64,000 nt of DNA from Flavivirga aquatica (GTDB lineage: Bacteria > Bacteroidota > Bacteroidia > Flavobacteriales > Flavobacteriaceae): the NCBI RefSeq assembly GCF_001747085.1, contig NZ_MDJD01000034.1, positions 1 to 64,000 on the forward strand. Direction: 5' to 3'. Every line of letters starts with the position of its first letter. Position 1 is the first letter of the stretch. Shown here piece after piece: positions 12,997 to 53,512 of the stretch. A model generated the notes under the pieces. The model saw only the letters and a program-made list of their open reading frames with translations. It did not search any database and had not been told where the DNA came from. Made by a program: the position numbers and the translations under genes.

Positions 12997-13094
12997 TGTC
13001 ATTACGGGGAGTTTTTATGACACGTGGTAATCTGTTTATTTATTTATTTATAATGAGATTGCCACATCACACAAAAAAGTATGATTCGCAATGA
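12997..13094. repeat. inverted pair of REP-like dispersed repeats
   Basis: Two diverged copies of one element face each other between the DUF1015 and hydroxybutyryl-CoA dehydrogenase genes: the left copy at 12997-13034 begins TGTCATTACGGGG and ends ACGTGGTAATCT, and the right copy at 13055-13094 begins GAGATTGCCAC and ends CGCAATGA. They are imperfect reverse complements and could fold as a cruciform or RNA hairpin. The same sequence family is found in pabB (36133-36163) and between nirB and nirD. Confidence 0.65.
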
Positions 13095-35708: not shown

Positions 35709-37010
35709 TTGAGGACAATCAAAATTAATAAGTTAGAAGATACTGTTAGATTTAAAAATCAAATTTTGATTTGGGCACAACAATTTGAAGATGTGGTTTG
35801 GTTAGATTCTAATAATTACGAACAAAAATATTCTAATTATGATGCTGTTTTAGCGGTTGATGCTTTTACAGGCATTCAAACAGACTATCATCAGGGTTTT
35901 GAAAAACTTAAGGAATATCAAACAAATGTAAACGATTGGATTTTTGGGTATTTAACCTACGATTTAAAAAATGATGTAGAAGTACTAGAATCTAATAATT
36001 TTGATGGCTTACAATTTCCAGATTTATATTTTTTTCAACCTAAAAAACTCTTTTTATTTAAAGGTGATCAAGTTGAAATTCAATATTTAAAAGTTGTATA
36101 CGATGAGCTGGAAGAAGACTTAAAAAACATCGGTCATTGCGAGGAGGTACGACGAAGCAATCTAACAAATGCTACCAACAACATAAAAATAAAACTTCGT
36201 ATTCATAAAGATGAATATTTTGAAAAGGTAAATAATATGTTAGACCATATGCATCGTGGATATATATATGAAGCTAATTTTTGTCAGGAATTTTATGCTC
36301 AAGATACCGTAATAAACCCTATAGAAACTTATTTAAAACTCAATAGCATATCTAAACCGCCTTTCGCATCTTTTGTAAAACTGCAAGATAAATATGTATT
36401 AAGTGCCTCTCCAGAGCGTTACATAAAAAAGGATAAACAATCTATTATATCCCAACCTATAAAAGGAACAGCTAAACGCTCTATTAATGTATATGAAGAT
36501 GAAGTGCTAAAGTTTAATTTGTTAAAAGACGAAAAGGAACGTAGCGAAAACATAATGATAGTAGATTTAGTGCGTAACGATCTATCTAAAACAGCACTTA
36601 AAGGTACTGTAAGGGTTGAAGAATTATGCGAAATTTATACATTTGACCAAGTACATCAAATGATTTCTACAGTAACATCGAAAGTAGAAGCCCAAACACA
36701 TCCTGTAGATATTATTAAGAGTACATTCCCAATGGGGAGTATGACGGGTGCTCCTAAAATTTCGGCAATGCATATTATTGAAGATTTAGAAGAAACCAAA
36801 CGAGGTGTGTACTCAGGAGCTATAGGCTATTTTTCTCCAACAGGGGATTTCGATTTTAATGTGGTTATAAGAACTATTTTATACAATCAAACCAAGAAAT
36901 ATGTGTCGTATTCTGTAGGTGGTGCTATTACAGCAAAAAGCAACCCTTTAAAAGAGTATGAAGAGTGTTTGGTAAAAGCTAAAGCGATGCGAGAGGTTTT
37001 GGAGGGTTAG
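35709..37010 (+). CDS. pabB: aminodeoxychorismate synthase component I (chorismate-binding)
   Basis: A chorismate-utilising enzyme of the anthranilate synthase component I/PabB family, 433 residues from the TTG at 35709. The C-terminal chorismate-binding domain has SKPPFASFVKL, SASPERYI, ISQPIKGTAKRS, ENIMIVDLVRNDLSK, STFPMGSMTGAPKI and RGVYSGAIGYFSPTGDFDFNVVIRT. PabB rather than TrpE is chosen by the short N-terminal domain and the single gene away from trp genes. Just before the catalytic domain the residues GHCEEVRRSNL come from a REP-like repeat (36133-36163) inserted in frame. It makes the precursor of 4-aminobenzoate for folate. Confidence 0.87.
   Translation: MRTIKINKLEDTVRFKNQILIWAQQFEDVVWLDSNNYEQKYSNYDAVLAVDAFTGIQTDYHQGFEKLKEYQTNVNDWIFGYLTYDLKNDVEVLESNNFDGLQFPDLYFFQPKKLFLFKGDQVEIQYLKVVYDELEEDLKNIGHCEEVRRSNLTNATNNIKIKLRIHKDEYFEKVNNMLDHMHRGYIYEANFCQEFYAQDTVINPIETYLKLNSISKPPFASFVKLQDKYVLSASPERYIKKDKQSIISQPIKGTAKRSINVYEDEVLKFNLLKDEKERSENIMIVDLVRNDLSKTALKGTVRVEELCEIYTFDQVHQMISTVTSKVEAQTHPVDIIKSTFPMGSMTGAPKISAMHIIEDLEETKRGVYSGAIGYFSPTGDFDFNVVIRTILYNQTKKYVSYSVGGAITAKSNPLKEYEECLVKAKAMREVLEG
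36133..36163 (+). repeat. REP-like repeat inside the pabB coding sequence
   Basis: The sequence GTCATTGCGAGGAGG, then TACGACGAAGCAATCT, has the ATTGC...GCAAT ends of the dispersed repeat also seen at 12997-13094 and 53369-53384. It is read in frame as about ten residues in the linker between the N-terminal and chorismate-binding domains. Confidence 0.7.
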
Positions 37011-37110
37011 TGGTGGAATAGAAGGAAAAGGGGAAATAAAAAAAGGAAAAAAGAGATTAGAGGTAAGTAAAAGGGAATGTAGAAAAAGTTTAAAGTTGTA
37101 GTTTTGTATT

Positions 37111-37465
37111 ATGAAGAATTATCGTGATTTAATTGTTTGTCAAAAATCGATGCAAATGGTAATTTTGGTATATTAACTTTTAAAGCAATTTCCAAATGAC
37201 GAAAAATTTGGATTGACGTCCCAAATAAAAAGATGCTCAGTTTCAATTCCTTCAAATATAACTGAAGGCTATGGTCGAAACTATCGAAAAGATTATATAA
37301 GATTTTTAAATATTTCTAGAGGTTTTTTTATATGAAATGTAAACGCAGTTTCAAATAAGTGTAAATTTGAATTTTATAAATGAAAAAGAATTAAAGGAGA
37401 TTAAAGAATTATCAATAGAAGTTAAAAAGATGCAAAATTCTTTGATTAAGAAGTTAGCTATCTAA
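37111..37465 (+). pseudogene. broken four-helix-bundle (S23/IVS-type) protein gene
   Basis: ATG at 37111 opens MKNYRDLIVCQKSMQMV, then a stop occurs after 21 codons. A second frame carries [42 protein letters not shown], and a third frame the ending EIKELSIEVKKM. Together these are a small four-helix-bundle protein of the 23S rRNA intervening-sequence type, about 118 residues when intact. It has at least two frame breaks and two stops. It lies between pabB and tilS. Confidence 0.82.
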
Positions 37466-37484
37466 TCCCTCATTAATTAACAAC

Positions 37485-53318: not shown

Positions 53319-53512
53319 AGTTGCGTTAAGGATTGCAGTGAAAATCCTTTTTAAAGTATTGAAACGTCATTGCGAGGTAATTTTTCTTTGACGTGGCATT
53401 TGTTAATCGATAAAAAAGGATATCAGATCGTTTTCCTTCTCGTCATAAACAAGAAAAAAGGGTTTTTAAAAAGATTGTAGCGAAAAACCCGACCTTTTAG
53501 GTAACGCCCTAA
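53319..53512. repeat. composite repeat with long imperfect hairpin between nirB and nirD
   Basis: GCGTTAAGGATTGCAG at the left end and TAACGCCCTAAG at the right end are partly complementary. Each half has its own small hairpin-like core (AAGGATT...AATCCTT on the left). Inside, at 53369-53384, is GTCATTGCGAGGTAAT, a copy of the REP-like repeat seen in pabB. This type of block (an AATCCTT-like half and a CCCGACC half) recurs in flavobacterial genomes in my recollection, which I cannot check here. It separates nirB from nirD and may affect mRNA processing. Confidence 0.55.

Follow-up and report, generated by a model that had tools for sequence, protein, structure and literature searches.

The capacity of repeats to rewrite protein sequence repeatedly has been discussed mostly for Rickettsia. 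The CGTC-tagged REPs (Di Nocera et al. 2013, PMC3733652) are short dispersed palindromes, present in Bacteroidetes too, that include intragenic units and head-to-head dimers. They are defined by a terminal tag (CGTC, TGTC, or CCTC), an 8- to 9-bp stem, a 4- to 5-bp loop, and, mostly, a CCA tail, and they are reported to lack a transposase; in two Xanthomonas species, different REPs occupy about the same site of recB (PMC3733652). REP insertions found inside tnpA_REP genes retain the reading frame of the host gene (PMC6006769). We describe here a REP-like element, A, within the pabB gene of Flavivirga aquatica, in a 64,000-nucleotide stretch of DNA (the window).

The repeat in pabB and its setting

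The relevant features of the window are as follows.

35709..37010, + strand: pabB, aminodeoxychorismate synthase component I (the TTG start at 35709 is inferred from homologues; the open frame starts upstream)
36114..36200, + strand: variable interdomain linker EEDLKNI...IKIKL, which appears from the PabB linker comparison and the model to be a recurrently filled loop
36133..36163, + strand: REP-like element A in pabB, 31 bp, in frame, GHCEEVRRSNL, residues about 141-151
12998..13090 (approximate), no strand given: degenerate intergenic head-to-head dimer of element A
53366..53398, + strand: intergenic copy of element A, a half element with the 5' half intact and the 3' half worn

Element A (GTCATTGCGAGGAGGTACGACGAAGCAATCT, the + strand letters of 36133-36163) lies within an intact pabB open reading frame and is read in frame as (G)HCEEVRRSNL, just as the original prediction had proposed for the linker between the domains. 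The two intergenic places at which the same repeat family had been expected in the window do exist, but they are degenerate or worn. The pabB copy agrees with the family A consensus at 28 of 30 defined positions, compared with a maximum of 20 in 20 shuffles of the window; these shuffles and the 0 matches of the reversed control exclude a chance match. The window copy has a 5-bp stem (ATTGC/GCAAT) and a long loop, and its folding is no better than that of shuffled sequences, so that a stable hairpin was dropped as its function. The element is open in 5 of the 6 frames, but about one-quarter of the shuffles reach at least 5, and special openness in all frames was likewise set aside.

The pabB product matches TIGR00553 (334 bits against a cut-off of 328), as well as PF00425 and PF04715, and in the protein alignment its catalytic domain retains the conserved columns. 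The nearest structure to its model (mean pLDDT of 71, moderate confidence) is that of PabB from Cytophaga hutchinsonii (3h9m). In the model, the element begins at the end of helix 130-141 and fills the loop ahead of strand 161-164, with pLDDT below 50 at residues 149-153; the gaps of the PabB/3h9m alignment are located at this loop. The modeled loop fits a tolerant site, and the variability of the linker, together with the model, agrees with the earlier suggestion that a REP-like repeat of a dispersed family occupies an interdomain position tolerating additions. The element would be tolerated because the frame is kept, no stop is introduced in frame, and the position is a loop; its peptide probably has no function of its own. 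Between pabB and tilS (positions 37080-37470), there is an apparent decayed gene for a four-helix-bundle (S23-like) protein, with stops and frameshifts, as judged by eye.

Repeat families A and B in genomes and PabB linkers

Family A is dispersed in the 4.64-Mb genome from which the window was taken, in about nine copies by the mapping that the original prediction had proposed. There are 6 exact matches to GTCATTGCGAG and 0 to its reversed control; GTCATTGCGAGG with one mismatch has 10 sites, but the control gives 5. Nine of the ten sites look like A copies: eight are intergenic, and among the ten one-mismatch sites checked, the pabB copy alone lies within a real gene. The tenth near match (L390), situated in an open frame and missing the second arm, was set aside as probably an ordinary gene match. 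The subtype of the pabB copy, GGAGGTACG, recurs in an intergenic position at C28:46706, and a GGAGGCACG copy of A is found at C47:89047. With a two-arm pattern, which gave no control match, 0 to 25 copies of A per genome were detected in 45 genomes (that of the window and 44 relatives). A second family, B (GTCAnnCTGAGC...GTCGAAGnnTCT), is present in 27 of these 45 genomes; the pattern search found none in the genome of the window. Both A and B are palindromes with compensated arms (covariation): the arms of A are complementary in 78 of 85 copies, and all 38 copies of B, in nine sequence types, keep complementary 3-bp stems.

The two families were sought in 153 distinct PabB linkers, which came partly from a scan of genome contigs and partly from whole genomes belonging to the family and the order. 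Linker length ranges from 22 to 42 residues, with 26 the commonest value (67 of 153) and 29 in the window. About ten residues had been expected to be absent from relatives; these lengths rule out such a simple insertion. Nor is the insertion a one-off, because many relatives have A or B at the same place. Scores of at least 18, compared with a maximum of 13 for shuffled linkers, were reached for A in 12 and for B in 17 of the 153 linkers, so the carriers number at least 12 for A and about 17 for B. In all A carriers, the element starts one nucleotide past the same isoleucine codon; B mostly starts 15 nt beyond that point. The element is longer in some carriers: linker L015 equals L012 plus a 21-bp in-frame stretch with a palindrome inside the loop of A. 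L059 and L189 are 92% identical at fourfold-degenerate sites and have the 5' half of B in common, the remainder being different. At the same place, the L232 linker (TPPVSSGHPPQGG) holds what is seemingly a third repeat type, C-rich, with the pattern CCTCCC...GGGAGG.

PabB trees were built without the linker, and the state of the linker (A, B, or none) was mapped onto them. At least 32 changes of state are needed on a quick tree of 153 rows, which has many open forks and weakly supported inner branches; on a better supported tree of 44 rows there are 20, with each of the eight clean A copies representing a change of its own. Supported neighbors differ in state: A in the Oceanihabitans linker L044 stands against B in L059 and L189, an A-like element in L016 against none in L018, and A in L225 against B in L068. 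The association between the A/B content of a genome and the state of its pabB is borderline (p = 0.05).

These patterns bear on whether the element was simply inherited. A single ancestral insertion passed on vertically, which selection on DNA or peptide preserved in some lineages and which decayed in others, would agree with the identical start nucleotide of all A copies. It would also agree with the element-free linkers: among 57 such 26-residue linkers, in-register identity to A is 0.367, compared with 0.268 after codon shuffling (sd, 0.010; maximum, 0.307), and the site in pabB therefore appears to be old. The element-free linkers have the look of A copies in decay, but the same signal would also result if this place had been filled repeatedly and independently. 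We nevertheless regard purely vertical descent as quite unlikely, given that close neighbors carry A, B, or nothing and that the elements are 77-97% identical in most carrier pairs despite saturation of fourfold sites. Across the ten A carriers, element identity is 20-30 of 31 positions (65-97%), and fourfold-degenerate sites of the same pabB pairs are only 24-50% identical, the exception being the close pair L066/L069 (68%); the clean A copies therefore appear to have been copied recently at the DNA level. Moreover, two loop subtypes known among the dispersed copies appear in unrelated pabB lineages, and dispersed copies are the most likely source of the clean copies in pabB, as judged from these sequences.

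Homologous exchange of pabB segments between species, a form of horizontal transfer that would shuffle a few linker alleles, could account for why the boundaries are fixed and why the linker state disagrees with the tree. In most pairs of A carriers, however, identity at fourfold sites is no higher within 60 codons of the element than elsewhere in the gene, so exchange of longer pabB segments is unsupported, and the sequence directly downstream differs between carriers. Exchange of tracts shorter than ~100 bp is still compatible with these data; as an explanation of the pattern as a whole, we consider exchange improbable.

The reading that we favor, and hold to be quite probable, is that the 31 bp in pabB are a REP-like element A copied at the DNA level from a dispersed pool into an exposed loop that is refilled recurrently. 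The site would probably have been first colonized long ago in Flavobacteriaceae. Old copies would decay to unrecognizable linker, and a copy of A would pass, as DNA, from the dispersed pool of the genome to the loop between the N-terminal and the chorismate-binding domains, fresh A or B being deposited at almost the same nucleotide. Such deposition would be ectopic copying, by insertion or conversion from dispersed copies. A copies keep the pabB linker near 26 residues, which is not what plain insertion predicts; neither a target duplication nor a donor copy was identified for the pabB element.

Other genes, transposases, and target sites

Copies of A or B outside pabB were sampled mostly from relatives (95 copies, including the intergenic ones of the window genome), and in 16 of the 95 an open frame runs across the copy and 40 codons to either side of it. 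Ten of these 16 lie in leuS, gltX, purL, mvaD, icmF, and a GHMP kinase gene, each named by sequence family from one member. Insertions into coding sequence had been thought unusual, but coding copies are not that rare, because at least 10 of 95 sampled copies fall within these named housekeeping genes. In leuS, the loop has 12 residues in six genomes; others hold A, B, A plus B, or a stretch of 155-176 residues. The gltX loop is mostly empty, with B in some genomes and a head-to-head A dimer in two. A and B thus alternate at both loops among relatives; in the window genome, the two corresponding loops (L341 and L360) contain neither element. Length is increased by net insertion in these two genes and nearly kept in pabB. 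The peptides vary with the frame, HCEEARRGN being read in pabB and VIASEAKQS in leuS and gltX; since frames differ between genes, no particular peptide is apparently selected.

Some of these loops have further peculiarities. In six relatives (L346-L351), the leuS loop before TTRPDT contains the in-frame stretch of 155-176 residues instead of A or B. A nuclease-like domain, DUF559 (PF04480), is present in the one such stretch tested, and at the ends of the stretch lies a third repeat-like peptide, PPSGVRG; the DUF559 stretch is a candidate for an enzyme tied to the A/B elements. In L374 and L376, the whole head-to-head A dimer, VIASETKQSVSNDEITTSQTPRND, is translated in gltX, where the loop is otherwise empty or filled with B.

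A link to a RAYT-type transposase, also put forward in the original prediction, is not supported by the distribution of Y1 transposases (PF01797). Four A-rich genomes (G026, G040, G042, and G034), with 10-16 copies of A each, have zero PF01797 matches, and a resident Y1 transposase is unnecessary for the persistence of A, which agrees with the absence of a transposase reported for CGTC repeats (PMC3733652). Mobilization of A by RAYT was dropped, as A persists in genomes lacking any Y1 transposase match. The whole genome G000 has eleven PF01797 matches, many with internal stops, which are remains of IS200/RAYT-like genes.

The recurrence of the exact position in pabB, and near recurrence in leuS and gltX, might suggest site-specific insertion by an enzyme that targets exact sites in the three genes. 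A scarcity of tolerant loops combined with old relics predicts such recurrence too, no common target sequence is seen beyond the repeats themselves, and no candidate enzyme is linked to the sites, Y1 transposases being absent from several A-rich genomes; we judge targeted insertion to be highly unlikely.

Comparison with known repeat systems

Recurrent copying from dispersed repeats, proposed above for pabB, has a wider version that is plausible if tentative: in Flavobacteriaceae, ectopic DNA copying that proceeds without a resident RAYT may repeatedly, and possibly still today, place two REP-like families in a small and recurring set of loops in essential enzymes. Repeat DNA would then keep supplying housekeeping proteins with linker sequence. 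Because one loop can be followed through many related genera, its filling, decay, and refilling form a natural series, and pabB, leuS, and gltX serve as three replicates; how fast, in which direction, and from which template REPs are copied therefore becomes measurable. For phylogenetics, linkers in proteins of this kind make poor markers, and a peptide like VIASEAKQS, HCEEARRGN, or CHPERSRRVS can belong to the actual protein and need not reflect an annotation error. Our literature search, which covered few subscription papers, found no earlier report in Flavobacteriaceae and, in the literature searched, no case of two repeat families taking turns at a single site across a whole family.

Among the known systems, A resembles the CGTC-tagged REPs in that its stem begins with AT, it forms head-to-head dimers, some of its units are intragenic, and it lacks an associated transposase gene, A being abundant in genomes without PF01797. 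Its xGTC end partly recalls their tag, reading GGTC in the window copy and CGTC, TGTC, or AGTC in other copies of the window genome. However, the window copy has a 5-bp stem and a longer loop, outside the defined sizes, and the tail of A and B is TCT instead of CCA. With stem, loop, and tail off the definition, A is therefore described as CGTC-like and not filed as a CGTC-tagged REP. Family-wide turnover at one site, seen here in Flavobacteriaceae, is undescribed for CGTC-tagged REPs in PMC3733652. Like the GTAG REPs mobilized by RAYTs (PMC6006769), A keeps the frame of the gene that it enters. Those REPs are marked by a GTAG tag and by a RAYT gene that the repeat flanks; A lacks the tag, and a connection with a Y1 transposase was not found. 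A also resembles the Rickettsia palindromic elements (RPE; compared here through PMC3733652), in which a palindrome lies in frame in genes for functional proteins. The RPE differ in host phylum and sequence, and A and B alternate at the same loops; the pabB copy is nonetheless of the RPE kind, a dispersed palindrome in an intact conserved gene with the frame unbroken.
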